Source of the DNA: Acidobacteriota bacterium
GTDB lineage: Bacteria > Acidobacteriota > Terriglobia > Acidiferrales > UBA7541
Assembly (NCBI GenBank): GCA_003223215.1
Contig: QHYH01000092.1
Location: 1-64,000, forward strand
Reading direction: 5' to 3'
DNA: 64,000 nt
Numbering within the stretch: the first letter of the stretch is position 1; each line of letters starts with the position of its first letter. Shown piece after piece: positions 18,518 through 47,095 of the stretch. Under the pieces are notes generated by a model. That model saw nothing but the letters and a program-made list of their open reading frames with translations, searched no databases and was not told where the DNA came from. Made by a program: the position numbers and the translations under genes.

Positions 18518-19171
18518 CTAGAAAAGAACCAGACCGCGGCGGATGCCAAGCGATACGGCTTCGGTTCGGCTGCTGGCGCCTAGCTTGCCCAGAATGGATG
18601 CGACGTGAAATTTGACGGTGTGCTCAGAGATGGCGAGCTTCGCCGCGATTTCTTTGTTGCCGAGTCCGCTTGCCAGCATTTGCAGAACTTCGCTCTCGCG
18701 CGGAGTAAGCGCTTCCCTAAGTTCTTCGAGCCCTGGCGACCGCGTTGGCCACAGAGCGAAGCCATTGACATTGACCTGCGAAGAAACCTGCGTGGGATGT
18801 AGCACCACCAGGCCGCTTTGAGCCGCTTCGAGTGCGGCAACGAGTTGGTCGGCAGAGATATCGTTGGGCAAAACCGCGCGAACTCCCGCGCCGAGCGCCG
18901 TTGACGAAGCGGCGAGCGATGCGGGTTCCACCATCAGGATCACGGTGAAATCGGACGCCAAGCCCGAGGCCATGACCGAGTCGAGGAAGGACTCGAACGG
19001 CTGGCCGGTGGTATCAACGAGAATCGCGTCCACCGGAGTATCGTCGAGGGAGCCGGCGAGGTCATCGAGGCGCGCGAAGCTGCCGGCGACCTCGAGTTGT
19101 CGCTCCGCAAGGAGATTCTCCAGGCTTGCGCGCGCCAGCGGCGAAGCCGCGACAATGAAAACGGAGATCAC
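18518..19171 (-). CDS. LuxR/NarL-type regulator with degenerate receiver domain
   Basis: A 217-residue DNA-binding regulator. The C-terminal helix-turn-helix is classical: LTPRESEVLQMLASGLGNKE, then IAAKLAISEHTVKFHVASIL. The N-terminal 125 residues have the receiver fold but lack key residues. The acidic pair after the first strand is replaced (VFIVAASPLA), an aspartate remains at about residue 52 (AILVDTTG), and the conserved lysine is asparagine (VLPNDIS). Phosphorylation-dependent switching is therefore doubtful. No histidine kinase is adjacent; instead the start overlaps the stop of an HtrA-like protease gene by 4 bp. It probably controls transcription in response to a signal linked to the two protease-like proteins. 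Confidence 0.88.
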   Translation of the reverse strand: MISVFIVAASPLARASLENLLAERQLEVAGSFARLDDLAGSLDDTPVDAILVDTTGQPFESFLDSVMASGLASDFTVILMVEPASLAASSTALGAGVRAVLPNDISADQLVAALEAAQSGLVVLHPTQVSSQVNVNGFALWPTRSPGLEELREALTPRESEVLQMLASGLGNKEIAAKLAISEHTVKFHVASILGKLGASSRTEAVSLGIRRGLVLF

Positions 19172-20037
19172 GCCGCGACGGGGCTCCTTCGAGGGAGTTG
19201 CTCTCCTAATTGAACGGCGACGCGCCGGACCCGCTGGTAATCGCCGCGGAGAAACTCGAGCAGCAACAAGCGCGGACCGCTGCCTTTAAGCGCGCGCGCC
19301 AGATCTTCGGGCGAGGCAAACCGCTGTTCTTCACTGCCCAGCAGAATATCGCCGGGCAGAAGAGATGCCCGGCCCGCCGGGCTTTTCGGTTCGACTTCGA
19401 GAACGACAAGGCCGAAAGTTTTGGCACGAGAAACGGGGCTCGGGATGAACGCCGGATGAACTGTGACGCCGAGGCGGCCGTCGCTCGGAATTGCCGAAAG
19501 AAAATCGCGCACCGCGTTGCTGGGAATGGCGAGCGCCAGGCGGCCCGCGACCATAGTATTGATGCCCACGATTTTGCCGCGCGCGTCGGCCAGTGGCCCG
19601 CCGGAATTTCCCGGCGCGAGAAGTACTTCCGCCTGCACCCAGTTCTGCGAGCCCAGCCCGCGAAGCGGGCCAACGCCGTGAATTACGCCCGTCGCAAGCG
19701 CGCCGACAAAGCCCATGGGATTGCCGATGGCAATGGCCAGTTCGCCGGGGCGCACCTGCGAAGAATCGGCGACGGAAGCCGCCGGGAGATTCACTGCATC
19801 GATGCGAAGCTCGGCGAGATCGCGCCAAGGATCGCGCGATTGGACCGAGGCCTCGAATTCGCGTCCATCCCACAGTTGGACGGCGGGGCGCGTGCTGCGT
19901 ACCACGTGGGCGTTGGTCACGAGCACGCCGTTACTGGAGCAAATCACACCAGAGCCCAAGCCGCGGCCGCCGGAGTGAATGAGAACCGTCGAACGCCGCA
20001 GTTGTTCGGCGATTTCGCCAAATCCCGGGATGGCCAT
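19168..20037 (-). CDS. HtrA/DegP-like trypsin-fold serine protease with PDZ domain, no export signal
   Basis: A 289-residue S1C-family protease. The start at ATG 20037 (MAIPGFGEIAEQLRRSTVLI) is 1 nt after the stop of the upstream gene; a longer frame to 20199 lies inside that gene. The catalytic triad is complete: His in VTNAHVVRS, Asp in DLAELRIDA, Ser in APGNSGGPL. A PDZ-like domain follows (LVVLEVEPKSPAGRASLLPG, GDILLGSEEQRF). No signal peptide or membrane segment is visible, so it probably acts in the cytoplasm, unlike classical DegP. It is flanked in one operon by an inactive paralogue and a LuxR-type regulator. Confidence 0.9.
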   Translation of the reverse strand: MAIPGFGEIAEQLRRSTVLIHSGGRGLGSGVICSSNGVLVTNAHVVRSTRPAVQLWDGREFEASVQSRDPWRDLAELRIDAVNLPAASVADSSQVRPGELAIAIGNPMGFVGALATGVIHGVGPLRGLGSQNWVQAEVLLAPGNSGGPLADARGKIVGINTMVAGRLALAIPSNAVRDFLSAIPSDGRLGVTVHPAFIPSPVSRAKTFGLVVLEVEPKSPAGRASLLPGDILLGSEEQRFASPEDLARALKGSGPRLLLLEFLRGDYQRVRRVAVQLGEQLPRRSPVAA

Positions 20038-20038
20038 G

Positions 20039-20953
20039 TCATGCAGCTCCCTGTGCGCGCTCGCCAACGACAATGCTGGCTTCCTGAAGTGCTCCTCCGC
20101 GAAGGAACTTGAGGGGCAGCGATTTGCCGATCGATTCTGCGCCGAGCTGCCCATGAACATCTTCGAGCCGGGTGACTGCCTGGCCGGCGAGCGCCACAAA
20201 AATGTCGCCGATCAGGATGCCGGCTTTGTGCGCGGGACCTTCGGGTTCGACTTCGAGGACGATGGCCGCAGTCTTGTCGTCGCGTTTCAGGGTTCGGCGC
20301 AGCGCATCGGGCAAGCGCACGGGTTGCAAGCCGACCCCAAGATAGCCGCGGGGGATGCGTCCTTTTTGCAGAAGCACATCGACAACGCGGTTCACTGTCG
20401 TTGCGGGAACCGCGATCGAGCCGAAGCGTGCAAAACGCGGCGTGGCAATGCCGATCACGCGGCCTTGCGCCTCGATGACCGCGCCACCGATGGCCGTGGG
20501 TTGCACGCCGATGTCGAGCCGAATGTACGGAGCGAGGGCCGCGCCGGTCCAGGCGCGGCCCTCGGCGACAACCAAACTGACGGCGCCAAGCGCGGCCACC
20601 GGGCCGCTTGCGCGCGTGCGCCCGACCACAAGGGCGAGACTGCCGGGTTTTATCGAAGCGGCGTCAGTCGCTTCCGCGCCTGGCGAAGTTGCTTCGGCGC
20701 ATTTCAACACGGCCAAATCAGTGGATGCGTCGCGACCTGCAAGAGATGCGGCCACAACACGGCCATCGGGCAGGGTGACTTGAATATCCTCGTCACGACG
20801 AAGCGCGTGCTCGGCGGTAACAATGACGCCGCGGCGCCAGATGACCCCGCTCGAAGAGCCGCGAGGCTCGGTGTGAACGGCAACCGCGCTTGCCGCGGCG
20901 CGATCAGTGGCGAGCGCCAGGGCGTTGGACAAAGCAACGAGTTCTGCTGACAT
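20039..20953 (-). CDS. HtrA-like pseudoprotease (catalytic serine lost) with PDZ domain
   Basis: A 304-residue paralogue of the next gene. The ATG at 20953 (MSAELVALSNALALATDRAA) has a GGAGG ribosome-binding site; the frame extends to 21256 without coding character. The trypsin fold is recognisable, with His (VIVTAEHALR) and Asp (STDLAVLK) kept. The loop that should read GNSGGP reads PTAIGGAV, so the nucleophilic serine is isoleucine and the oxyanion glycine-asparagine is also changed. The PDZ domain is intact (GYLGVGLQPVRLP, IVLEVEPEGPAHKAGILIGD). No signal peptide. I infer a binding or regulatory partner of the active protease 1 nt downstream. Confidence 0.88.
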   Translation of the reverse strand: MSAELVALSNALALATDRAAASAVAVHTEPRGSSSGVIWRRGVIVTAEHALRRDEDIQVTLPDGRVVAASLAGRDASTDLAVLKCAEATSPGAEATDAASIKPGSLALVVGRTRASGPVAALGAVSLVVAEGRAWTGAALAPYIRLDIGVQPTAIGGAVIEAQGRVIGIATPRFARFGSIAVPATTVNRVVDVLLQKGRIPRGYLGVGLQPVRLPDALRRTLKRDDKTAAIVLEVEPEGPAHKAGILIGDIFVALAGQAVTRLEDVHGQLGAESIGKSLPLKFLRGGALQEASIVVGERAQGAA

Positions 20954-21276
20954 TTTCGGAAACCTCCATGAACAAGATGCCGCAGTCGCTGCGGCGTTTA
21001 CATCCGCCAAATGGCTAGGTGGAACTTCGAAGAAAGGAATAGGCAATGCATAGCGGCCTCGCCGCAACTTTAGCGACGTGACTCCAGGCGCCGTTTGGTT
21101 ATCAACCAACGCATAATGAGTGGGATAGGAGACGGCGCAAAGTGAAAGACGCTGGGGATCGCGCGAAGAGTTTGCCGTCCTTTGCCGGATAGAAAAACCT
21201 CGAAACGCTGGCGCAGAATCTCCCCGAGCGCGACCATATGGCTCTCGGCAGACCAACCTAAGGGGTTCAGAAAATC
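20954..21276. promoter_or_regulatory. Divergent intergenic region with hairpin and palindrome upstream of the protease operon
   Basis: No gene supported in these 323 bp. A strong hairpin lies at 20979-20995 (GCCGCAG, loop TCG, CTGCGGC, extendable by two more pairs), 25 bp before the pseudoprotease start and so within its likely 5' untranslated region. A second inverted repeat, TTGGTT-ATC-AACCAA, lies at 21095-21109 and could be an operator. Confidence 0.4.
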
Positions 21277-25876: not shown

Positions 25877-27253
25877 TTATTGGCCGCCCGTCGCTAGCGC
25901 AGGGAGCATGAATTTCGGCGTGACTTCCCTGCGTTTGGACCAGTCGTGATAGGTGTGGCATTCCGAACAACGCGAATCGGCGTGATCGGGGCCGCGCCCG
26001 TGACAGGTCTTACAAACTGCAATTCCCGGCAGCAAGATGTCGCTTGCTTCCGTGCTCGTAAGAGCTTTGGCATGGCAGCTCACACAGGAGAATCCCCGAT
26101 GCGCGTCGTGGTCGAACCTCGCGTGCGGCATCCACTGTGTCTTTACGTTGGCAGCGGCCACCTGGGGAAGGGCACTACCGCGTGAAATGGTAAGCGCGTG
26201 GCACTGCCTGCAGGTTTTGCGCCACAACAATTCTTCGGCTTCGGCCGTTCGTTCGGTTACCCATTGCGACACCGTGAGTGCGCGAAACCGCGTCGGAATA
26301 GGCTTGCCGCCAAGTTCCTGAGCTGGCTCAGGCGTCGCTCGGAGTTCATTGGGGTGCGCGGCAATGTATTGCTCGAATTTCTTTAGCAAGAACGCGTGAA
26401 CGAGGTCTGGTTTGTCGTGGGGAACGCCTTCGTCAAAGCGCTTGTCAAACGTGAGGAGATGGCACGCCGCGCACGCATTGGCAAATTTCACGGGGGCCAT
26501 CAGTTCGCGTCCGGTAATGGGCTTGGGTCGCCTGAGGCTGCCGGCGCTCAGCGCAAGCATTTCATCGCTGGCGTTAGAACTGACCGTGGCAGCGCGGTAG
26601 CTTGCGTCTGAATAGGTCAGGTCGGCTTCGACACCCGCGGGACGATGACAATTGCCGCACTCAAGATTCACGAGGACGCCGTTTGGCCCTCGTCGAATCG
26701 GTTTCATGTGTATGGAGTGATTCAGCTCGATGGTAGCCGAATCGCCGGCCTTCCGTCCGAGAGCCGCGAATTCCGGATGGCCGTCCGGGAGGCTGTGGAT
26801 GCGCGAGGCGTATCGCGTGTCGGGCCGGCTATTCCGTAAGTCAGCGTGACAAGTGGCGCAGGCTTGGTCGCTCGCGGCGGCGAGACTGACGCGGCCGCGA
26901 TGCTCGGAGTGACAAGCGGCGCAGGCCGGTGAAGCGATCTTGGAGGCGTGGTGGGCAGGCCCATCGTGGCAGCCGAGGCACGCGTTATCGGCGGCTTTCG
27001 CCGCAAAGGCGCCGGCTTGACGCACGTGGCAGGCAGCGCATTCTTTGTCAAGCACGGCGTGCGCTCGCGATAAGCTGCCGCTCGAGTAGACGCGATGGTC
27101 GCTCGAAACGCCGCGGCCGACGATCCACAGAAGCGCGAGAAGCGGCACGAGGAAGCTGAGCCAGAGTTTCGCGCACTTGAGCGGCGTCGGCCTCTTGAAG
27201 TAATGGAGGTCGATGCGCTGCGCGAGCTTCTTGGTTGTCCTTGTTCTTGCCAC
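25877..27253 (-). CDS. Membrane-anchored decaheme cytochrome c
   Basis: A 458-residue protein with a single uncleaved membrane segment at about residues 30-48 and then ten CxxCH heme-binding motifs: CAACH, CLGCH, CAACH, CATCH, CGNCH, CAACH, CRQCH, CVSCH, CKTCH and CSECH. The first four lie close together (residues about 72-145); the others are spread through the C-terminal half. The heme domain would be periplasmic. It is the last gene of a four-gene operon, 24 bp after the membrane cytochrome-b-like gene, and would be the periplasmic electron acceptor or donor of the complex. It does not obviously match NapC, NrfH or OmcA-type families. Confidence 0.9.
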   Translation of the reverse strand: MARTRTTKKLAQRIDLHYFKRPTPLKCAKLWLSFLVPLLALLWIVGRGVSSDHRVYSSGSLSRAHAVLDKECAACHVRQAGAFAAKAADNACLGCHDGPAHHASKIASPACAACHSEHRGRVSLAAASDQACATCHADLRNSRPDTRYASRIHSLPDGHPEFAALGRKAGDSATIELNHSIHMKPIRRGPNGVLVNLECGNCHRPAGVEADLTYSDASYRAATVSSNASDEMLALSAGSLRRPKPITGRELMAPVKFANACAACHLLTFDKRFDEGVPHDKPDLVHAFLLKKFEQYIAAHPNELRATPEPAQELGGKPIPTRFRALTVSQWVTERTAEAEELLWRKTCRQCHALTISRGSALPQVAAANVKTQWMPHARFDHDAHRGFSCVSCHAKALTSTEASDILLPGIAVCKTCHGRGPDHADSRCSECHTYHDWSKRREVTPKFMLPALATGGQ

Positions 27254-27277
27254 TCGTTAGCCACCCTGGCCGCTTCT

Positions 27278-28255
27278 TCAGTAGCGCAACGCCATGACGG
27301 CATGCACGGCGCCGAGCAAAACGAGCGCGAGCGAAAGCGGAATGTGCACCAGCAGCCAGCCGTGCAGCCAGTGGTGTAACCTCTCTTGGCGTGCCAGTTG
27401 GCGGGCTTCATCGCAAATGTCTTCGAGGTCAGCGACCGCCCCGTGCGCTCGGCCCGGCAGCAAGGTGCGCAGTGCGGCAAAGCTGCTGCTCGCTGTTGCC
27501 GGATGGGCTAACCGGTGGGGGTGTTTTCCCGGATATTCGAGAAACTGGCGCATCTCGTTCAAATAAAAAATGCGCAGCGGCGCACCTTCTTCTTGGCTGA
27601 GACGAATATTCTCGCGTGCCGCGGCAACGGCCGCGCTCGCGCCAGCACTGACGGCTGCAGAGGTTCGCAAGGGAACAGCGCCGGCTATAGGCCGTAGCGC
27701 GGTGAACCCGCCGGCGCGCTCGATTCCCTCGGTCGAAGATTTGGCCAAGCCGAGGTCTCCGCACAGCGCTTCAACGGTTCGGTCCGCCTCCTCGCGTAAC
27801 AGCGCTCGAACGTGGTCGATCTCGTCGTAGATGGTTTCGAGCGGCACTTCCGCAGTCAGGACGCGCGGGATGTAATGCTGCAGCGCGGCTCCGAACGCGC
27901 CGCTAGCGACGGTAATGATCAGCAGCCACATCAACACGCGCGTGAGCGTGCCGCCAAAATGAAAACCGGCGTGAAAGAGAATGGTCGGCAGCGCCAGAAG
28001 ACCGAGCCAGAGGTGGCCGCGCATCCAGGCTTGCGCGCGGCCAACACGCCAGGTAGGCACGCGTTTTCGTGCGCCCAGCAACGCGGCAAAAATCACGCAG
28101 CCGAACCCGAGGATTCCAAACAAGAGACCAACAACGCTTCCGCCGCGTGGCCCTTGCGGTGCGTTGAGCGTATCGCTGAGATACACGATCGCCGCGGCGG
28201 CAAGCATGACGAACGCCGCGATGGCCCAGGCGCGGTGTGTTCGGTCAATTCTCAT
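27278..28255 (-). CDS. His-rich integral membrane protein, cytochrome-b-like
   Basis: A 325-residue protein starting at ATG 28255, which overlaps the stop of the upstream gene by 4 bp (ATGA). Four hydrophobic segments lie in the first 130 residues and one at the C-terminus (LLVHIPLSLALVLLGAVHAV). A charged helical cytoplasmic or periplasmic domain of about 160 residues lies between them. Histidines sit inside or beside membrane segments (RGHLWLG, LFHAGFHFG, LQHYIPR, RLHHWLHGWLLVH, AVHAV), the arrangement expected for one or two b-hemes. I infer that it carries electrons from the iron-sulphur protein to the decaheme cytochrome or to quinone. No close family recognised. Confidence 0.8.
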   Translation of the reverse strand: MRIDRTHRAWAIAAFVMLAAAAIVYLSDTLNAPQGPRGGSVVGLLFGILGFGCVIFAALLGARKRVPTWRVGRAQAWMRGHLWLGLLALPTILFHAGFHFGGTLTRVLMWLLIITVASGAFGAALQHYIPRVLTAEVPLETIYDEIDHVRALLREEADRTVEALCGDLGLAKSSTEGIERAGGFTALRPIAGAVPLRTSAAVSAGASAAVAAARENIRLSQEEGAPLRIFYLNEMRQFLEYPGKHPHRLAHPATASSSFAALRTLLPGRAHGAVADLEDICDEARQLARQERLHHWLHGWLLVHIPLSLALVLLGAVHAVMALRY

Positions 28256-30429
28256 TTCGCACCACTGCCCCCCAGCATTTCGGCGAAAAATGATTTTGGA
28301 TCCACGCGATGCGCTGCGTCGTGTGGACAGGCGTATACGCAGCTGGGTTCCTTCAAGTGCGTGCAAAGATCGCAGGAGGTTGCCTTTTGCTTGATGACCG
28401 CCTTCTTGCGGCCGGGATTTTGCGGATCGTCCGAAAGAACTTCGAAGGGATGCAGATTGATATTGCCGTAGGGGCAATTCCGCGCGCAGAGCCCGCAGCC
28501 GATGCACCAATCCTCGATGATGACTTCGAGCGAATTGCGGCGACGGATGGAGCCAACGGGGCACCCGACCATGCAAAGCGGGTCGCGGCACTGGCGGCAA
28601 CTCGTGGCCACGAGATAGCCCTCAAAGCGCAACCCGTCGCGCACCAAACGTGTGACGCCGTCATGCGCTTCGGCGCAGGCGTTTACGCAAGCATCGCAGC
28701 GTGTGCAGTTTTGCAGATCGAGGACGAGCAGGCTTTGCGCTTCCATCAAACCCTGCGAAAGGAATTGGTCAATGGGGACGCTGTCGACCCTTTGCAAGCG
28801 CTGCTGATTAGCCGCGCGGCGTTCGGCAGCGACGGCTTCAAGACCGGCTCGCACGCCCGGAAATTTCGCAACCATGTCTCGGAAATCGTCGCCGGCGATG
28901 CGCACGAGCTCGACATGGTCGAGCGCCGTGCACGTTGCCGTCCGATCGCCGCCCCCGAGCAAACCGATTTCGCCGAAATAATCGCCCCGGGACAAGTACG
29001 CGAGCACCATTTCTCCGCCGGGATAGTTCTCCAAAACCTTCACGAACCCGATCCGCACAAGATAGAAACTGTCTGCCGTGTCGCCTTGTTGGACGATCAC
29101 CTGCCCCGGCGCGAACCCTTGAAGCTCGACACGCTCTTTGAGATGCCCGATAAACTCCGGCGGCAGATCCGCGAACATGGGCACGCCGCGAAGGTGGTTT
29201 TCAAGCGCGCGGCGGCGGTAAGTTTCATCTAGCTGCGCGCGGAAGGCCTTGTTCTTCAGCATGATGTCGAGCACATTGCGCAGCATCTCGTAAGCGACGA
29301 TATCGGATTCCGCCACGACCGTGGCGGAGCGCGGATAGAAATTCATGCAGGTCATTTCGCCGAACAGGTCTCCGGGACCGAGTTCGGCAACCGGGTTGCC
29401 GTAGGAAAGATCGACGGAAGCATCGATTGGAATCGTGCGGTCGCGCGTTTCTTCGCCGCGCCGGTCTTCTTCGCGACCCACCAGCGTGCTGGTCAGCCGC
29501 TTAAAAAACCCCTTAGCGCCGCCTTGCGTTTTAACGTGCGCGATAGGAGCTGAAAGGGAAACTTTGGCCCGGCCCTCGACCATGTAGAACGCCGTGGAAC
29601 CAAACTCGCCCTCGCGGCAGATCACTTCGCCCTTGCGAAAGCGGCGCTTGACGATGGCGCCGCGATTCAGTTCCAGAAACGTCCCGGAAACGCCCCTAAA
29701 AACCGGGATTTGCAACAGCTCTTCGGCTTCAAAAATCTCCGTGCCCGGCCCGGCACAGATCGCTGTTCCGGCAGGTCCTTTGTTGGTCAGCGCTCCGGTG
29801 GGGCAGGAAACCATGCATTCGCCGCAGGAAATGCAGGTGGAAGCGCCCATCGGCGCGTTGAGATCGAAAGCGATGCCCGCCGAATAACCCTTTCCCATGC
29901 GCCCGAGAACGAAATTGTCTTTCACTTCGTCGCAGCCACGAATGCAGCGGTCGCAAAGGATGCAGGCGTCATGATCGACGGCGATGGCCAGAGACGAATC
30001 GTCCTCCCCACGGGCGATCGATCGCTTTGCAAAGCGAGCCTCGGCGATACCTGCGGCCTTTGCCAACCCTTCGAGTTCGCAATCTCCCGATTGTTCCTGT
30101 CGCGCGCACGGCGAGGGATGATCGGACATCAGCAGCTCGAGCAGGGTCTTGCGCGCATGCAAGATTTTGTCCGAATGGGTGACGACTTTCATGCCGGGTT
30201 CGACCGCGCGCACGCACGAAGCAGAAAGGACGCGTGCGCCGGTGTCCACAACACACAGGCGGCAAACGCCCACCGGCGTCTGGTTTTGCAAGTGGCACAA
30301 CGTGGGAATGTGGATGCCGCCCATCCCAGCCGCCTCGAAGACCGTCGTGCCGTTTGGCACGCGCATGGGTTTCCCATCGATCGTGAGGTCAACCATCCCC
30401 GGCGGTGTGGCAGGACTGGTCCTATTCAC
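28252..30429 (-). CDS. Multi-cluster iron-sulphur protein with two cyclic-nucleotide-binding domains (NuoG/HoxU-like head, HybA-like tail)
   Basis: A 725-residue fusion. The GTG start at 30429 overlaps the upstream stop by 4 bp (GTGA); ATG 30396 is an alternative. Order: a [2Fe-2S] domain (C45, C56, C59, C72) as in NuoG/HoxU; a His-Cys motif (H104, C108, C117) in which the expected middle cysteine is Gln111; two [4Fe-4S] sites (C156-C166, C199-C209); cyclic-nucleotide-binding domain 1 (about 240-392, FGE and PRSATV present, with a 50-residue insert); domain 2 (about 415-537, FGE and DRTATC present); and a tail with four [4Fe-4S] motifs (CTRCDACVNAC, CRQCRDPLCMVGCP, CIGCGLCARNCP, CDLCTHLKEPSCVYACP). 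It is probably cytoplasmic, receiving electrons from the NuoEF subunit and passing them to the membrane partner. Nucleotide binding is inferred from the kept motifs. Confidence 0.9.
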   Translation of the reverse strand: MNRTSPATPPGMVDLTIDGKPMRVPNGTTVFEAAGMGGIHIPTLCHLQNQTPVGVCRLCVVDTGARVLSASCVRAVEPGMKVVTHSDKILHARKTLLELLMSDHPSPCARQEQSGDCELEGLAKAAGIAEARFAKRSIARGEDDSSLAIAVDHDACILCDRCIRGCDEVKDNFVLGRMGKGYSAGIAFDLNAPMGASTCISCGECMVSCPTGALTNKGPAGTAICAGPGTEIFEAEELLQIPVFRGVSGTFLELNRGAIVKRRFRKGEVICREGEFGSTAFYMVEGRAKVSLSAPIAHVKTQGGAKGFFKRLTSTLVGREEDRRGEETRDRTIPIDASVDLSYGNPVAELGPGDLFGEMTCMNFYPRSATVVAESDIVAYEMLRNVLDIMLKNKAFRAQLDETYRRRALENHLRGVPMFADLPPEFIGHLKERVELQGFAPGQVIVQQGDTADSFYLVRIGFVKVLENYPGGEMVLAYLSRGDYFGEIGLLGGGDRTATCTALDHVELVRIAGDDFRDMVAKFPGVRAGLEAVAAERRAANQQRLQRVDSVPIDQFLSQGLMEAQSLLVLDLQNCTRCDACVNACAEAHDGVTRLVRDGLRFEGYLVATSCRQCRDPLCMVGCPVGSIRRRNSLEVIIEDWCIGCGLCARNCPYGNINLHPFEVLSDDPQNPGRKKAVIKQKATSCDLCTHLKEPSCVYACPHDAAHRVDPKSFFAEMLGGSGAK

Positions 30430-32171
30430 GGTCGAATTCCCACGCGCTGGGCTTCTCCGGCGCACGATCGAGCGGTGAAGCACACCCCGCTCGGGCACTG
30501 TCCGTGCAGCACGTGCGCATCGACTTCCGCGCGAAAATGCTTCAGCACGGACTGAATCGGCGCCGGCGCAATCTGGCCAAGGCCGCAGATCGACGTTTGG
30601 CTCATGGCCAGGGCGAGATCATCGAGCAGGGCCAGGTCGGCGCGGTACTGCGGCTCGAGGACGGCCCCTTCTGTCCAGCGAACCAGGAGGTCGGTCATCT
30701 TTTGCGAGCCGAGGCGGCACGGCACGCACTTCCCGCAAGACTCGTTGCGATAAAAACGCACCGCGTTCAACGCCATATCCAGCATGCAGGTGGTATCGTC
30801 GCAAACGACGATGGCGCCCGAGCCAAGCATGGAGCCGGCGTCGGCCAGCGCTTTGAAGTCCAGGGGCACGTCAATCAGGGAAGCCGGCAGGTAGCCGGAC
30901 GAAGGGCCGGAAGGTGCGAAGGCCTTGAGCGAGCGGCCTCCCCGAATGCCACCCGCATGCTTGAAGATCACTTCTCGGATGGGAGTGCCCATGGGCAGTT
31001 CGAAAACGCCGGGACGCTCCACGTGGCCGCTGACCCCGACAAATTTCAGCCCGCGCGAACCGTTGACGCCTTGCGCGACAAACCAATCGACGCCGCGCGC
31101 CAGAATCTGCGGGACGTTGATGAACGTTTCCACGTTGTTGATCACCGTCGGCTTCTGCCACAAACCGATCTGGCCCGGGAATGGCGGCTTGTTGCGCGGT
31201 TCGGCGCGATGGCCTTCGATGGCCTCGAGAAGCGCGCTCTCTTCCCCGCAGATGTAGCCACCGGGGCTCACAAAAACTTCGAGATCAAAGTCGAACTCGC
31301 TGGAGAGAATTCTCTTTCCCAGCAAGCCTAGGCGGTAGCACCGGCCGATTTCTCCGCCGAGTATTTCTTCCTCGCGAGCGTATTCGTGGCGGATATAGAG
31401 GATGCCGCGCTTCGCCCCGGTCACAACGCCGGCGATCATCATGCCTTCGATCACCAGGTGAGGCAGATGGGTCATGATGAAGCGGTCTTTGATCGTGCCC
31501 GGCTCGCTTTCATCGGCATTGCATACGACATACTTCACGGGATCGGGCTGCTTCCGCACCAGATCCCACTTCATGCTCGTAGGAAAGCCGGCGCCGCCCA
31601 TTCCGCGAAGTTCGGCGGCTTTGAGCTGTGCGAGGACGTCGTCCCATGCGCGGGACTCGACGAGCTTGCGCACGACGCCGTATTTCTGGTCGTCACCGTC
31701 GCCATAAGGGTCGGCTTTGCACGCGATGCGCGCCTGCTCGGGATGCGGCTGGTCGACTTCTTCGCCGCGAAGGGCGCGGCGAGCCATTTGCTCGGCGCTC
31801 GCGGCACTAACCTCGGTAAGAATCTGATCGTTGATCGATATTGCCGGCGCGCGCTCGCACCGGCCGAGGCAGGAAACGTCACGAATCTGCACGTCTTCGG
31901 GGCGGGAGCCGGCAAAGCGACGTTGCAGCTCCATGCGCAACTCGCAAGCGCCGTTGAGATGGCAACTCATGTCCGCGCAGACGCGAATTTCGGCTTTGGC
32001 CGGCGGCGCGAGGTGAAAATGCGGGTAGAAACTCGCGACGCTGTGAAGCTGGTAGAGCGGAGTGTGCGTGCGCTGGGAAAGTCCTTCCAGCTCCGCCGTG
32101 GGCAGAAAGCCGTAGCGCAGCTGGATGGCCCGAAGGTCGTCGAAGATCACGTCGTTCGGTCTCGCGCACAA
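30426..32171 (-). CDS. NuoE-NuoF fusion: NADH-oxidising flavoprotein (diaphorase) subunit
   Basis: A 581-residue fusion of the thioredoxin-like NuoE (residues 1-150) and NuoF (165-545). NuoE keeps its [2Fe-2S] cysteines C65, C70, C101 and C105. NuoF has the NADH/FMN glycine loop GMGGAGFPT (190-198), CNADESEPGTIKDR, PGGYICGEESALLEAIEG, and the [4Fe-4S] cysteines C479, C482, C485 and C529. The tail adds three more cysteines (C559, C564, C570). It should oxidise NADH, or reduce NAD+, in the cytoplasm. No hydrogenase, formate dehydrogenase or other Nuo gene is near, so it belongs to the dedicated complex with the three genes downstream. First gene of the operon. Confidence 0.92.
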   Translation of the reverse strand: MCARPNDVIFDDLRAIQLRYGFLPTAELEGLSQRTHTPLYQLHSVASFYPHFHLAPPAKAEIRVCADMSCHLNGACELRMELQRRFAGSRPEDVQIRDVSCLGRCERAPAISINDQILTEVSAASAEQMARRALRGEEVDQPHPEQARIACKADPYGDGDDQKYGVVRKLVESRAWDDVLAQLKAAELRGMGGAGFPTSMKWDLVRKQPDPVKYVVCNADESEPGTIKDRFIMTHLPHLVIEGMMIAGVVTGAKRGILYIRHEYAREEEILGGEIGRCYRLGLLGKRILSSEFDFDLEVFVSPGGYICGEESALLEAIEGHRAEPRNKPPFPGQIGLWQKPTVINNVETFINVPQILARGVDWFVAQGVNGSRGLKFVGVSGHVERPGVFELPMGTPIREVIFKHAGGIRGGRSLKAFAPSGPSSGYLPASLIDVPLDFKALADAGSMLGSGAIVVCDDTTCMLDMALNAVRFYRNESCGKCVPCRLGSQKMTDLLVRWTEGAVLEPQYRADLALLDDLALAMSQTSICGLGQIAPAPIQSVLKHFRAEVDAHVLHGQCPSGVCFTARSCAGEAQRVGIRP

Positions 32172-32272
32172 ATCGCCGCGCAGGCTTCGTGGAATACGCG
32201 GCGCGGGTCGGGTTGTTGAATCTCCTGCATACTACTGAGCGTAAACCGAGGTCGCCATAGCGCCCCGTTTGC

Positions 32273-32294
32273 TTTTCGCGGCGCGTCGCGAAAA
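32273..32294. promoter_or_regulatory. 22-bp perfect inverted repeat (8-N6-8), candidate operator
   Basis: TTTTCGCG (32273-32280) and CGCGAAAA (32287-32294) are separated by 6 bp. It lies between the divergent NADH-dehydrogenase-like operon and the pentaheme cytochrome gene, 15 bp upstream of the cytochrome gene's -35 box. The 8-6-8 geometry is that of CRP/FNR-family sites, although the half-site differs from known consensus sequences. Confidence 0.55.
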
Positions 32295-32309
32295 AGGCAA
32301 CGCAATCCG

Positions 32310-32339
32310 TTGACTTCCCCGCGACGCAAACGATATAAG
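32310..32339 (+). promoter_or_regulatory. Sigma-70-type promoter of the pentaheme cytochrome gene
   Basis: TTGACT (32310-32315) and TATAAG (32334-32339) with an 18-bp spacer, 26 bp before the start codon; a GCAGGAGCG ribosome-binding site follows at about 32355-32363. Confidence 0.7.
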
Positions 32340-32365
32340 CGAACAGGTTCCTCCGGCAGGAGCGA

Positions 32366-33727
32366 ATGCGCAAGACGAAAAATTCATTCCTACTGCGATT
32401 CATGATCAGCCTGCAGTTCTCAGCCCCCGGCGCGTTGGCCGGACAGGAAAAGGAGCCCGTTAAATACATTGGCCCGGGATCGTGTGCCGCCACGAGCTGC
32501 CACGGAAGCGTTAAGCCAATCGCCGGAAGCCGCATCCTGCAAAATGAGTATTCGACCTGGATCCTTCAGGACAAGCACAGCCGCGCCTACCAGGCGCTGA
32601 CCGGTGAGGTCGGCGAACGTATGGCGCGCATCCTTAAGTTGGATGCGAAGGCCGAGGAATCCTCAAAATGCCTCGCCTGCCACGGGCTTTACACCGCGCC
32701 GGAGCAGCGCGGTCGCGCCTTTGCAATCTCCGAAGGCGTGTCCTGCGAAAACTGCCACGGACCCGCTTCGGCTTGGCTTGGTCCGCATACGACACGTTCC
32801 TGGTCCCATGAAAAATCGCTAGCGCTGGGAATGACCGACACGCGCAACGTGATTCATCGCACGGAGAAATGCCTGGAATGCCATCTCGGGACAAAAAACA
32901 AGTTTGTTGACCACGAAATGATCGCGGCCGGACATCCGGATCTGTATTTTGAGCTGGATTCTTTCTCGGCGGTGATGCCGCGCCACTGGAAGGTTCCTCG
33001 CGAGTCCGAGCCGGGGAAGCCCGCAGAAGATGCCGCCTGGGTGGGCGTGCGCGAATGGAGCGTCGGCCAGGCGGTGCAACTTGGCGCGGAGATCGCGCGT
33101 CTGAGCTGGCGCGCGAGGAACGAGCGGGCCGACAAAAAAGATATCTGGCCCGAATACTCGGAGCTTTCCTGTTTCGCGTGTCACCACGCCTTAGGCCCGG
33201 CCAAAGACAGTTGGCGCCAGGAACACGGTTACGCTGGGCGACGCCCCGGCGATCCGGCGTGGAACGCTTCCCGCTACGCCGTGTTTCGTTTGCTTGCGAA
33301 ACAGATGGACACCGCAAACGCGCAAGAGCTGGACCGGCAAATGCTCCACGTCTCCGAGGAGATGAGCAAGCTCAATCCCGACCGCAGCGCCGTGGCGGCT
33401 GCGGCTTCCCTGGCAGTGCCCTTGGCGCAGCGTATCGCGGAGCGGCTCGCCGCCCTGCCGTACGATCAGGCCCTGGTGTTGCGCATGCTCGAGCGCATTC
33501 CCGAGGACGCCGAAAATATTGCGCTGGCCGATGAGCGCGGCGCGGAGCAAGCCGCCATGGCCATGGATTCGCTCTACATCGCTTACAGCCGAGCCGCGAA
33601 GCCGGCCAATGCCGCTGAAGTCCGCACCGCCATCAACGGCCTCTTCCAGCAACTCGAGAATCCCTCGGCGTATAACGCCGACCAGTTCGCATCCGCGCTC
33701 CGGCGAATTCGCCCTTTGCTACAATGA
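32366..33727 (+). CDS. Pentaheme c-type cytochrome, cytochrome c554-like
   Basis: A 453-residue periplasmic protein with a signal peptide (about residues 1-26, ending GALAGQ). Heme motifs are one CX4CH (SCAATSCHGS) and four CXXCH (CLACH, CENCH, CLECH, CFACH). The CX4CH first site with a following multiheme core resembles the cytochrome c554/c552-like family of periplasmic multiheme proteins. A helical C-terminal domain of about 150 residues has no heme motif. It is divergent from the NADH-dehydrogenase-like operon and shares its intergenic operator, so it is a likely redox partner of the decaheme cytochrome. Confidence 0.88.
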   Translation: MRKTKNSFLLRFMISLQFSAPGALAGQEKEPVKYIGPGSCAATSCHGSVKPIAGSRILQNEYSTWILQDKHSRAYQALTGEVGERMARILKLDAKAEESSKCLACHGLYTAPEQRGRAFAISEGVSCENCHGPASAWLGPHTTRSWSHEKSLALGMTDTRNVIHRTEKCLECHLGTKNKFVDHEMIAAGHPDLYFELDSFSAVMPRHWKVPRESEPGKPAEDAAWVGVREWSVGQAVQLGAEIARLSWRARNERADKKDIWPEYSELSCFACHHALGPAKDSWRQEHGYAGRRPGDPAWNASRYAVFRLLAKQMDTANAQELDRQMLHVSEEMSKLNPDRSAVAAAASLAVPLAQRIAERLAALPYDQALVLRMLERIPEDAENIALADERGAEQAAMAMDSLYIAYSRAAKPANAAEVRTAINGLFQQLENPSAYNADQFASALRRIRPLLQ

Positions 33728-43816: not shown

Positions 43817-45685
43817 ATGAGCTTCCGTACGAAACTCCTGCTCGTCGTGTTGCTGACCATCTTTGCGTCGGTGTCCGTGGTGGCTTACGCGGTGACGTAT
43901 TACACGCGCTCGGAGTTCGAAGCCATGGATGCGCAGCGCACCGAAGCGCTGGTAGCGCAGTTCCGTAAAGAATACGCACAACGTGGCGAAGAAATTGTTC
44001 GCCAAGTCGAAAACATCGCCAACGCAGAAATTACACTGCATACGGCGCTGGACGCCGAGCGGCCCAACGCGGATCTCTCGATTTATGTCAACGACGCGAA
44101 TGGGGCCGCCCAGGACCATGCCCTCGATTTAGTCGAGTTAGTCAATTATGACGGGACGGTAATTTCTTCGGCGCAAAACCCCTCACGGGTAGGCTACAAG
44201 AACGAGTGGGTCACTGCGAAGAGCGACTGGAGCGATGTCCCGGCTTTCTTGAAACGGGAAGAGACACCCACGGAAGTGGCGCTTTCGCTCTGCGCGGTAC
44301 GCATCCAGCCCAACGTTCCCAAGCCTTTCTACATCATTGGCGGCCGCCGCTTGGACAAAAATTTCCTGGCCTCGCTGGTTCTTCCCGCCGGAATGCGCGC
44401 GCTCATCTATACCAATCTCGATCCGTCTTTCGCGGCCGCTTCCCTGCTCGGAGAAAACATGGATACCGACCAGGCCGAACGATTCGCTCCACTGGTCCAG
44501 CACCTGCAAAAGGAGTCTCAACCGCAGCCCCTGGTCCGCACCATTGAGTGGTCCAGCAATCCGGCCGATGCCGAAACCTTTCACGCCATTCCCTTGCCGG
44601 GACAAAACAACGAACTGCTGGGCGTTTTTTTCGTGGGCAGCTCGAGAAAAGGGTTGGTGCTGCTGACCGAGCGAATCCTGAAAAGCGCTGCTGCGGTTGC
44701 CGCGGCCGCTCTTTTTGTCGGGCTCATCGTCAGTTTCTGGATTTCCGCGCGCATCACCAAGCCCGTCGAGGAACTTGCCGAAGGCGCCCGCGAAGTGGCT
44801 ACCGGTAGGTGGGACACGCGCATCGAAGTCCGCGGAATCGATGAAATTGGCCAGTTGGCCATCGCCTTTAACGACATGACGCGAACGCTGGCCTCGCAGA
44901 AAGAACGCTTGCTGCAGACCGAGCGGGTGGCCGCCTGGCGCGAGCTCGCGCGCCGCCTCGCCCATGAACTGCGGAATCCTCTCTTCCCCATGCAAATCAC
45001 GGTCGAGAATCTGCAGAAAGCCCGCCGGCTAGATGCCAGGCAATTCCTCGAAGTGTTCAACGAGTCCACCGCCACCCTGAAGGCGGAGCTCGCCAACCTG
45101 AACACCATCGTCGGCCGCTTTAGCGATTTCTCCAAAATGCCTGCGCCGAAATTCGTGCGCGTGAACGTGAACGAAGTCCTGCGCAACGCGTTACGCCTGT
45201 TCGAGCCGCAATTCACCGCGGTCGGCAAACCCACGATCACCAAAGAACCGTTCCTTGCCGATCCACTTCCTGAGATTGATGCTGATCCTGATCTGCTCCA
45301 TCGCGCCTTTCAAAATCTGGTGCTGAACGCCATGGACGCCATGCCTGCGGGCGGGACGCTCACGCTGCGCACTTCGGAACACAGCGGCAACGTGCGCATT
45401 GAGGTTGCCGACACGGGCAAAGGCCTGGCTCCGGAAGAATGCTCCCGCTTGTTCACCCCGTATTACACGACAAAACAAATGGGGACGGGTTTGGGCCTGG
45501 CGATCATTCAGTCCGTGGTCAGCGATCACCACGGAACCATTTCCGTGACCAGCGAGGAAGGCCGGGGCACCACGTTTCGCATCGAGCTTCCCCAGCGCCA
45601 GCCCGGCCAGAAAGGGAAGCCTCGCGAACCGGCTCCAGAACCCAAAAAAGACACGCCTTCCACTCTGGCTGCCGCTTCCGACTAG
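43817..45685 (+). CDS. NtrY-like membrane sensor histidine kinase
   Basis: A 622-residue kinase. Membrane segments at about residues 6-26 and 286-307 enclose an extracytoplasmic sensor of about 260 residues. A HAMP domain follows (ITKPVEELAEGAREVATG), then the dimerisation helix with the phospho-accepting histidine in LARRLAHELRNPLFPMQI (about residue 383). The ATP-binding domain has an N-box (FQNLVLNAMDAMPAGG), G1 (VADTGKGLAPEE) and G2 (GTGLGLAIIQSV). It phosphorylates the response regulator encoded 21 bp downstream. No PAS domain is evident, unlike canonical NtrY. Confidence 0.95.
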   Translation: MSFRTKLLLVVLLTIFASVSVVAYAVTYYTRSEFEAMDAQRTEALVAQFRKEYAQRGEEIVRQVENIANAEITLHTALDAERPNADLSIYVNDANGAAQDHALDLVELVNYDGTVISSAQNPSRVGYKNEWVTAKSDWSDVPAFLKREETPTEVALSLCAVRIQPNVPKPFYIIGGRRLDKNFLASLVLPAGMRALIYTNLDPSFAAASLLGENMDTDQAERFAPLVQHLQKESQPQPLVRTIEWSSNPADAETFHAIPLPGQNNELLGVFFVGSSRKGLVLLTERILKSAAAVAAAALFVGLIVSFWISARITKPVEELAEGAREVATGRWDTRIEVRGIDEIGQLAIAFNDMTRTLASQKERLLQTERVAAWRELARRLAHELRNPLFPMQITVENLQKARRLDARQFLEVFNESTATLKAELANLNTIVGRFSDFSKMPAPKFVRVNVNEVLRNALRLFEPQFTAVGKPTITKEPFLADPLPEIDADPDLLHRAFQNLVLNAMDAMPAGGTLTLRTSEHSGNVRIEVADTGKGLAPEECSRLFTPYYTTKQMGTGLGLAIIQSVVSDHHGTISVTSEEGRGTTFRIELPQRQPGQKGKPREPAPEPKKDTPSTLAAASD

Positions 45686-45706
45686 TGCGCCCAAAGGGAC
45701 CGACGC

Positions 45707-47095
45707 TTGCCCCGCAAAGCCCATCTCCTTGTGGTTGACGATGACCCGAACACGCTGGCATCGCTTTCGCGGGCCTTCCGGCTGGCCGGGCACGAAGCCA
45801 CGGTCTGCGACAACGCCAGCCGTGCCGTCGAGCTGCTTCGCGCCGAAAATTTCGACCTGATCCTTTCCGATGTCGTCATGCCCGGCAAGAGCGGAATGGA
45901 ACTGCTCGACGAGCTGAAGAAAGCGGGCGTGAAGACGCCCGTCGTCTTAATCTCCGGCCAAGCCAATATCGAAATGGCAGTAAAAGCCACACGGCTTGGC
46001 GCGCTCGACTTTCTGGAGAAGCCGCTCTCTACCGACAAGTTGCTCGTTACCGTCGAAAATGCTTTGCGCTTGACGCGCTTGGAAGACGAAAACCGCGAGC
46101 TGCGCCAGCGCCTCGGAAAACACGAATTGGTCGGCTCGAGTCCGGCCATGAAAAAGTTGCTGGCGCAAATCGCGCGCGTCGCGGCCAGCGAAACGCGCGT
46201 TTGCATCTTGGGCGAGACGGGCACCGGGAAAGAACTTGTCGCGCGCGCCATTCACGAAAAGTCGCCGCGCCGCGCCCATCCGTTCATCACCCTGAATTGC
46301 GCGGCCGTTCCCGCCGAGCTGATTGAATCCGAGCTTTTCGGCCACGAAAAGGGCTCGTTCACCGGGGCCGCTTCTCGCCATCTCGGCAAATTCGAACAAG
46401 CCGAAGCGGGCACGCTTTTCCTCGACGAAATCGGCGACATGCCCCTGGCCATGCAGGCGAAATTGCTGCGCGTGCTCGAGGAAAGCGAAGTTGAGCGCGT
46501 GGGCGGCGACAAACCGATCAAAGTCAACGTGCGCGTGCTGGTGGCCACGCATCGCCATCTCGAGGAACTGGTCAAGCAAAATGCCTTTCGCAGCGATCTG
46601 TTCCACCGCGTCTATGTGTTTCCCTTGGCGGTTGCTCCGCTGCGGGAGCGGCCGGAGGATTTTCCGGAGCTTGTCGCGCATTTCGCGCGGCAGCTGGCCG
46701 CGCAAAACGGCTGGAAGGAGAAAGGGTTCACTCCCGAAGCGATCGCGGAATTACGAACCTACGCGTGGCCGGGAAATCTGCGCGAATTGCGCAACGTGGT
46801 CGAGCGTCTGGTTTTGCTCGCATCCGAGCCGACCATTGGCGCCGCCGATGTTCGCCTGGCCCTGCCTTCCGCCGCTTCCCGCACCGGAGGCGGATCGCTA
46901 CGAGCAGCCACCGGTGCGGGAACTTTAGCCGAGCGCACCGAAGCGTTTGAAAGGGAAGTGCTGCTTGCGGAAATCCGCACTCATAATTTCCACATGACCA
47001 ACGTGGCGCGGGCGCTGGGGTTGGAACGTAGCCATCTCTACAAGAAATGCCAGCAGCTCGGCATTGACCTGCAAACCCTGCGCAAACCCGACTAG
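45707..47095 (+). CDS. NtrC-family sigma-54-dependent response regulator
   Basis: A 462-residue activator starting with TTG at 45707 behind an AAAGGGA ribosome-binding site. Receiver domain: acidic pair in VVDDDP, phospho-acceptor Asp in LILSDVVMPG (about residue 54), Lys in FLEKPLS. AAA+ domain: Walker A GETGTGKE, the sigma-54 contact loop as GSFTGA in place of GAFTGA, Walker B GTLFLDEIGD, and arginine finger region FRSDLFHRVYVF. A Fis-type helix-turn-helix ends it (MTNVARALGLERSHLYKKCQ). It pairs with the kinase upstream. I could not locate a matching -24/-12 promoter in the window. Confidence 0.95.
   Translation: MPRKAHLLVVDDDPNTLASLSRAFRLAGHEATVCDNASRAVELLRAENFDLILSDVVMPGKSGMELLDELKKAGVKTPVVLISGQANIEMAVKATRLGALDFLEKPLSTDKLLVTVENALRLTRLEDENRELRQRLGKHELVGSSPAMKKLLAQIARVAASETRVCILGETGTGKELVARAIHEKSPRRAHPFITLNCAAVPAELIESELFGHEKGSFTGAASRHLGKFEQAEAGTLFLDEIGDMPLAMQAKLLRVLEESEVERVGGDKPIKVNVRVLVATHRHLEELVKQNAFRSDLFHRVYVFPLAVAPLRERPEDFPELVAHFARQLAAQNGWKEKGFTPEAIAELRTYAWPGNLRELRNVVERLVLLASEPTIGAADVRLALPSAASRTGGGSLRAATGAGTLAERTEAFEREVLLAEIRTHNFHMTNVARALGLERSHLYKKCQQLGIDLQTLRKPD

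Follow-up and report, generated by a model that had tools for sequence, protein, structure and literature searches.

A conserved Acidobacteriota gene unit for a probable NADH-to-periplasm electron conduit with built-in cyclic-nucleotide-binding domains

Known transmembrane redox complexes and the composition of the locus

The Hmc, Tmc and Nhc systems of sulphate reducers are membrane complexes believed to connect the cytoplasm with multihaem cytochromes c of the periplasm by electron transfer across the membrane (PMC4215793). The locus described here resembles Hmc and Tmc in combining a cytoplasmic Fe-S protein, a membrane subunit and a periplasmic multihaem cytochrome c within one operon; this likeness is one of gene composition, and our profile scans covered generic families. 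Unlike Hmc and Tmc, it encodes a predicted dihaem cytochrome b in place of any NrfD subunit, and it has an attached NADH dehydrogenase module and built-in cyclic-nucleotide-binding (CNB) domains; Hmc/Tmc have no known cytoplasmic partner. It also resembles CbcL and CbcBA of Geobacter, bc-type inner-membrane cytochromes that feed periplasmic multihaem cytochromes (PMC12307469), and relatives of its membrane protein weakly match DUF4405 and Ni_hydr_CYTB. However, the donor of CbcL is menaquinol, while this locus encodes an Fe-S/NADH input and has its b and c parts in separate proteins.

The soluble parts consist of NuoE/F and HoxU-type modules, as in the HoxFU(I) diaphorase of NAD-reducing [NiFe]-hydrogenase and in HydB/HydA1 of NADH-dependent [FeFe]-hydrogenase. 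In contrast to these enzymes, no hydrogenase is present, two CNB domains and a HybA-type ferredoxin follow the HoxU-like part in one fused protein, and a His-Cys site lacks its third Cys. NADPH oxidases and ferric reductases (FRD) likewise pass electrons from cytosolic NAD(P)H to two b haems on H-x13-H-type pairs and export them, with activity gated by a regulatory input. Their sequence kinship to the membrane protein is limited to a weak Ferric_reduct match in 4/24 relatives, and the locus differs from them in having an Fe-S hub and a decahaem acceptor rather than O2. The unit is best read as a further version of the known transmembrane redox complexes (Hmc/Tmc/CbcL-like), NADH-driven and probably gated allosterically. 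The preliminary description knew of no complex with this composition, and we found no published description of one either; literature searches returned no paper on a cNMP domain with NuoF, NADH dehydrogenase or ferredoxin (Acidobacteria), on FHA with multihaem proteins, or on Acidobacteria with multihaem proteins and NADH dehydrogenase.

The features of the locus, within a window of 64,000 nucleotides (the whole stretch of DNA analysed), are listed in Table 1. Four minus-strand genes and a divergent pentahaem gene had been reported, and all genes, strands and coordinates proved correct. So did the 4-bp stop/start overlaps (GTGA at 30429-30426 between NuoEF and the hub, ATGA between the hub and the membrane-protein gene) and the 24-bp gap between the membrane-protein gene and the decahaem start. 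The hub gene most likely starts at 30429, rather than at the 30498 of a longer open reading frame. NuoEF starts with TTG, and an upstream ATG (about 32231) is out of frame; a frameshift or assembly error was considered and rejected because a close homologue (L051) has the identical arrangement, leaving TTG or a later codon as the start. Residues of the hub are numbered as in protein P0001. The window's cluster contains no terminal acceptor or outer-membrane partner.

Table 1. Positions of the genes and hub domains in the window
Feature	Position	Strand	Sites or basis
Decahaem cytochrome c, N-terminal membrane anchor	25877..27253	-	10 CXXCH
Membrane protein, 325 aa, predicted dihaem cytochrome b	27278..28255	-	Alignment, His invariance, model, weak family matches of relatives
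Fe-S hub protein, about 725 aa	28252..30429	-	GTG start in 4-bp overlap with NuoEF
C-terminal HybA/HydN-like ferredoxin part of hub	28312..28719	-	Four [4Fe-4S] sites, 16 Cys
CNB-B domain	28864..29115	-	E486/R495
CNB-A domain with 45-aa insert	29272..29661	-	Phosphate-binding cassette E357/R366
HoxU/HydA1-like N-terminal hub part	29782..30393	-	[2Fe-2S], degenerate His-Cys site, two [4Fe-4S]
NuoE-NuoF fusion, 581 aa	30426..32171	-	Pfam; NCBIfam NuoF; conserved N1a and N3 Cys
Pentahaem cytochrome, cytochrome c554-like	32366..33727	+	4 CXXCH + CX4CH; signal peptide (by eye)

Conservation and modularity of the gene unit

The preliminary description proposed searching other genomes for the same gene order. 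All four genes occur together in 71/80 GTDB loci, 70 of them with identical order and strand. As the unit recurs this often while hub identity falls to about 54%, it is far beyond chance; the four-gene unit is real and conserved. It is found mostly in Acidobacteriota and also in some Methylomirabilota and Planctomycetota. The pentahaem gene is divergent in all 61 complete loci that have it, and its product has five haem sites, one of them the CX4CH. The ten CXXCH motifs of the decahaem cytochrome are found in the same number in 72/79 homologues. Homologues belonging to a hydrogenase, formate dehydrogenase (FDH) or Nuo operon would have counted against the preliminary description; no subunit of any of these was seen in the neighbourhoods inspected, and the unit itself contains no HoxYH or hydrogenase catalytic subunit or domain.

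The sequences show the unit's modularity along with its gene content, cofactor ligands and conservation: the NADH input is exchangeable and the core is retained. This core (pentahaem cytochrome, CNB-ferredoxin, cytochrome b and decahaem cytochrome) also occurs without NuoEF/HoxU, in core-only loci, where an NADH module is absent from the site. In FHA-type loci, NuoEF/HoxU gives way to a Pyr_redox_2-FHA-(Fer2) flavoprotein and an FHA protein, and further multihaem cytochromes are encoded together with a protein resembling an outer-membrane barrel. This beta-barrel-like protein has no Pfam or PDB match, and a search of the window's genome, run without a positive control, found no homologue. The HoxU/HydA1-like part is absent from both the core-only and the FHA-type hub homologues. 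At two loci (L109 and L097) an NDH-2 adjoins the cluster, and in L109 this NDH-2 itself includes a separate, canonical CNB domain, again with the Glu/Arg pair. The original term NADH:cytochrome complex therefore fits the NuoEF-type loci but names only one version of a modular system, the NADH module being missing or replaced by FHA/Pyr_redox proteins in other lineages.

Cofactor sites and the candidate electron path

NuoEF contains NuoE-like 2Fe-2S_thioredx, Nuo51, SLBB and NADH_4Fe-4S domains (Pfam). Like NuoF of Complex I, it has an FMN/NADH site and an N3 cluster (PF01512, PF10589), with the FMN/NADH-binding motifs GMGGAGFP and ESEPGT and the N3-type [4Fe-4S] Cys; the N1a and N3 Cys are kept in 76-80/80 homologues. 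Its score against the NCBIfam NuoF equivalog (460 bits) is below the cut-off of 559, and no linked NuoB/C/D/H/I/J-N subunits were found in the syntenic unit or in the window's gene list (by eye). Electron bifurcation was considered and dropped, since the C-terminal ferredoxin domain expected of HydB-type subunits is absent: there is no Fer4 match, and the HydB alignment stops at residue 565 of a protein that ends at 581.

The hub contains Fer2_4, NADH-G_4Fe-4S_3, cNMP_binding and Fer4-type domains (Pfam). The six [4Fe-4S] sites and one [2Fe-2S] site attributed to it were recovered (two plus four, and one), fully conserved in 82-86 of 86 homologues. The reported His-Cys site is present but degenerate; the third Cys of the NuoG motif H-x3-C-x2-C-x5-C is missing, with Q, E, H or S at position 110 wherever this position is present. 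Equivalog scores are 174 bits for HoxU (cut-off 333) and 205 for HydA A6 (cut-off 765), with the match confined to the first 240 residues.

The membrane protein has two H-x13-H pairs (H81-x13-H95 and H304-x13-H318), nearly invariant in 98 homologues; all four His are kept in 79/79 NuoEF-type, at least 6/7 core and 12/12 FHA-type proteins (the last at about 30% identity). A structure model shows helices carrying these pairs, and two helices each with H-x13-H ligands are a feature of dihaem cytochrome b, of which the pairs are the predicted signature. Beyond the weak matches of its relatives (DUF4405, Ni_hydr_CYTB, Ferric_reduct), the protein is without a Pfam match and without a relative of solved structure; a fold search (Foldseek) gave no PDB match at E<=0.001, and profile searches were empty as well.

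On balance, these five genes probably encode an inner-membrane NADH-to-periplasm electron conduit, with the CNB domains most likely its allosteric switch. Conserved cofactor ligands and strict synteny give good support to the route first proposed, from NADH through FMN/Fe-S, ferredoxin and membrane haem b to periplasmic multihaem cytochromes c; a physical complex, the electron direction, the ligand and the gating are our inferences. NuoEF would oxidise NADH at FMN, and the electrons would leave by way of its Fe-S clusters for the HoxU-like end of the hub. They would then traverse the hub's [4Fe-4S] wire to the dihaem cytochrome b, cross the membrane, and on its periplasmic face reach the anchored decahaem first and the pentahaem cytochrome after it. 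Both CNB domains lie in the hub between its Fe-S parts on the NADH side and those on the membrane side, where binding of cAMP/cGMP (or another small nucleotide) would most likely connect or disconnect the two halves.

Gating, quinones and electron direction

The hub matches cNMP_binding (PF00027) with 130 bits, and both domains have the cassette Glu/Arg pair. In CNB-A this pair is invariant in 93/93 homologues (NuoEF-type and close core-only groups). In CNB-B, E486 is kept in 85/86 and R495 in 81/86 NuoEF-type homologues; over NuoEF-type and core proteins together, the Glu is found in 92/93 and the Arg in 88/93. This is weak evidence of binding, as the proteins compared are already 55-90% identical. 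cAMP/cGMP are the ligands known for PF00027 domains that carry such a pair, and the host genome encodes a class III nucleotide cyclase; c-di-AMP, also named in the preliminary description, is an unlikely ligand given the domain type. AlphaFold gave a poor model of the hub (pLDDT 60). Its PADLOC matches were set aside, as they arise from the CNB domains only. Direct cyclic-nucleotide control is plausible, with indirect support from the conserved phosphate-cassette residues. We advance more tentatively the full proposal that cAMP/cGMP on the two CNB domains acts as a direct switch, coupling NADH oxidation to transmembrane export or uncoupling the two, and that phospho-threonine sensing (FHA) would control this core instead in related lineages.

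FHA-type hub homologues keep both CNB folds, but the cassette Arg is lost from both in 13/13, and nucleotide binding is hence not essential to the core. The electron path could be the same, with CNB domains that are structural, serve dimerisation or docking, or have a ligand that is no second messenger (e.g. a dinucleotide), so that no second-messenger control exists. The accessory HoxI dimer on R. eutropha HoxFU, an NADPH activation site of the oxidised enzyme, would be in line with this (PMC3702609). We consider it rather unlikely, as both the Glu/Arg conservation in the NuoEF-type and core proteins and the separate CNB domain of the L109 NDH-2 speak against it.

Returning to the membrane protein, it might instead be a quinone-reactive cytochrome b (CbcL or Ni/Fe-hydrogenase type), making the unit an NADH:quinone or quinol:cytochrome c oxidoreductase and the core-only loci quinol-fed. 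The DUF4405 and Ni_hydr_CYTB matches would fit, as would the core-only loci without an NADH module and the description of CbcL, a bc-type cytochrome complex, as menaquinol-oxidising (PMC12307469). However, in every place where they were found, the membrane and decahaem genes stand alongside the four-[4Fe-4S] ferredoxin, usually with NuoEF added, and since a quinol oxidase needs no Fe-S input, this constant partner makes a quinone-reactive protein unlikely.

An inward path, with periplasmic cytochromes passing electrons from Fe(II) or another outside donor to reduce NAD+, seems very improbable. NuoEF/HoxU-type modules are reversible, HoxFU among them, and the extra multihaem cytochromes and barrel-like protein of FHA-type loci would suit such a path. 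Yet the transfer from c-type cytochromes to NAD+ is uphill, the cluster has no pmf-coupled subunit, and the cultured host of the unit, Granulicella aggregans, is a heterotroph. Finally, although the nearest relatives of the soluble parts are HoxU/HydA1 and HydB/HoxF, a misplaced or degraded hydrogenase, FDH or Complex I operon, or a bifurcating enzyme, is scarcely credible given the missed equivalog cut-offs, the absent HydB-type ferredoxin domain, the lack of such subunits nearby and, above all, the synteny of a unit that recurs by itself, and the degraded hydrogenase operon was dropped.

Little is known of electron disposal at low oxygen in Acidobacteriota, which rank among the most common bacteria of soils. 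The outward conduit proposed here appears to be a conserved, previously undescribed exit route from the NADH pool, and its five-gene signature is now defined for annotators. As electrons would exit without proton pumping, its role may be to vent surplus NADH in a regulated way, or to feed a reductase in the periplasm or outside the cell. A single membrane/multihaem core would accept interchangeable NAD(P)H-oxidising heads that differ in their signalling domains, CNB or FHA. Should the gating prove true, a second messenger would control respiration by acting on the enzyme and not on the gene.

Gene order and distribution

The window comes from contig C49. The genome measures 8.8 Mb, and its closest named relatives are MAGs of subdivision-2 ('gp2') Acidobacteria. 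Coordinates confirmed the succession of four minus-strand genes and a divergent cytochrome gene given in the preliminary description, and the sequence contains its two 4-bp overlaps (GTGA, ATGA) and 24-bp gap. Upstream of the NuoE-NuoF fusion (NuoEF), an ATG (MQEIQQ...; 32229-32171) lies in context yet out of the NuoEF frame; the identical arrangement in locus L051 points to TTG as the start codon.

Genes of the cluster and other genes in the window
Feature	Position	Strand	Domains and motifs
NuoE-NuoF fusion	30426-32171	minus	Pfam Complex1_51K, NADH_4Fe-4S, 2Fe-2S_thioredx, SLBB
Fe-S hub	28252-30429	minus	Pfam Fer2_4, NADH-G_4Fe-4S_3, cNMP_binding (130 bits), several Fer4 types
Membrane protein	27278-28255	minus	no match in Pfam scan
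Decahaem cytochrome	25877-27253	minus	Pfam cytochrome c families; 10 CXXCH
Cytochrome c554-like (pentahaem)	32366-33727	divergent from other four	cytochrome c families; 4 CXXCH, one CX4CH
Tandem trypsin/PDZ protease genes (HtrA-like by eye)	19168-21256	minus	
Tandem sensor-kinase-like and NtrC-like response-regulator genes (by eye)	43817-47092		

The hub occurs in 44 of the 89 genomes of the window's own family. Scanning GTDB genomes with it gave 154 relatives, and we retained the best 80 as loci. These best 80 come from Acidobacteriota, Rokubacteria/Methylomirabilota (L108, L109) and Planctomycetota (L123, L124, L127, L129), and include the cultured Granulicella aggregans (L130). All four operon genes are present in 71/80, with identical order and strand in 70 of these 71, and the c554-like gene is divergent upstream in every four-gene locus that has it (61/61). 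Short contigs underlie several incomplete loci. L129, a Gemmatales locus, has its membrane and decahaem genes upstream of NuoEF; at L123, L124 and L127, NuoEF and the hub were found alone. The preliminary description would have been contradicted by a hydrogenase, formate dehydrogenase or Nuo operon context, and none was seen in the partly annotated flanks.

The cluster, whole or in part, is also present in MAGs labelled Rhodanobacteraceae and Actinobacteria (L116, L117), reflecting either transfer or mis-binned acidobacterial/rokubacterial contigs. Decayed copies also occur. In genome G034 (L050, 8061-9887), hub residues 1-303 continue in frame into the decahaem (from its residue 173), giving a single 609-aa reading frame, and in G004 (C65:18996-19990) just the NuoEF end and hub fragments remain, with the hub broken at the same point (residue 304).

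Redox sites and cyclic-nucleotide-binding domains

NuoEF of the window has the FMN/NADH motifs, and its N1a-type (Cys 65, 70, 101, 105) and N3 (Cys 479, 482, 485, 529) ligands are kept in nearly all of 80 homologues. Of the hub sites proposed as conduit parts, the [2Fe-2S] and six [4Fe-4S] sites (two N-terminal, four C-terminal) held up, being conserved in 82-86 of 86 proteins. The NuoG-type His-Cys site did not: its third Cys is missing in every homologue having that region, so a cluster of the NuoG kind probably does not form there.

Cytochrome b proteins bind two stacked b haems through H-x13-H pairs located on two helices. The membrane protein has two such pairs (H81-x13-H95, H304-x13-H318), invariant in 79/79 NuoEF-type homologues (with NuoEF and the HoxU-like part) and present in at least 6/7 core-only homologues (without both) and 12/12 distant homologues with FHA proteins instead (FHA-type). 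Its AlphaFold model (pLDDT 78) places both pairs within long helices. Its relatives match named cytochrome-b families weakly, and sequence and fold searches found no solved relative.

Canonical cAMP/cGMP domains bind phosphate through an Arg and ribose through a Glu, the two being separated by nine or ten residues. Among 93 NuoEF-type and core-only proteins, both are present in the first domain, CNB-A, of all 93; in the second, CNB-B, 92 have the Glu and 88 the Arg. The window's genome also encodes a class III nucleotide cyclase. Taken together, these observations make cyclic-nucleotide binding by the hub likely in this clade, without showing gating. In FHA-type proteins (13/13) both domains keep Glu and have lost Arg, so the core can live without nucleotide binding. 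The AlphaFold model of the hub (pLDDT 60) is too poor for structural reading. A conserved 45-residue insert (hub residues 293-342; window ~29400-29550), with an amphipathic-looking stretch (GFFKRLTSTL...), divides CNB-A ahead of the phosphate cassette.

Exchangeable input modules

Hub homologues lacking the HoxU-like part turned up in a phylum-wide search and have two kinds of neighbourhood. Core-only loci (L048, L049, L131-L135) group c554-like, CNB-ferredoxin, cytochrome b and decahaem genes without NuoEF or the HoxU part; L132, near a contig end, has no c554-like gene. Genus g12 has NuoEF paralogues (~40-50% identical) only elsewhere in its genomes. Its nesting within the NuoEF group on the tree (branch supports 83-97; the tree does not resolve deeper core-only forms) suggests that the NuoEF/HoxU part was lost there.

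FHA-type loci (L136-L148) have the same core, save that membrane and decahaem genes were not seen in L145, with an FHA-domain protein in 13/13 and a Pyr_redox_2-FHA flavoprotein in 10/13, in some of which a Fer2 domain can be recognised at the C-terminus. Seven (L138, L140, L141, L143, L146-L148) also encode an upstream protein that by eye ends like an outer-membrane beta-barrel, with no database match, and most of these have a further multihaem cytochrome; such clusters are possible extracellular electron conduits.

A type II NADH dehydrogenase (NDH-2) adjoins the cluster in two phyla (L109, 12811-14412; L097, 1882-3462), in L109 with a fused C-terminal cNMP-binding domain carrying the canonical Glu/Arg. 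Several genomes from the same genus contain relatives, but the window's own genome yielded none. Together, these neighbourhoods indicate that a constant membrane/multihaem core takes differing NAD(P)H-oxidising heads. Signalling domains are found repeatedly on the side where electrons enter, and both features support, without proving, the proposed direction of electron flow.

Proposed electron path

With the parts and their conserved ligands established at sequence level, we infer that the assembled wire would run from NADH through FMN and the NuoEF clusters to the HoxU-like clusters, and from the four [4Fe-4S] clusters of the hub through two b haems to the decahaem and pentahaem cytochromes, with the CNB switch between the two cluster sets. 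So assembled, the unit would work like the Hmc/Tmc transmembrane redox complexes (PMC4215793) and, on its periplasmic side, like CbcL (PMC12307469); the architecture of its soluble head is that of HoxFU. On HoxFU, the accessory dimer HoxI is the NADPH activation site (PMC3702609). The features tested ruled out membership of the Complex I, Hox/Hyd or bifurcating families, and we found no description of this combination of parts in the open-access literature. Since electron transfer from NADH to c-type cytochromes releases much energy and no pump is encoded, the unit should be wasteful and hence worth gating. Possible roles are redox balancing or the supply of electrons to a periplasmic/extracellular reductase.
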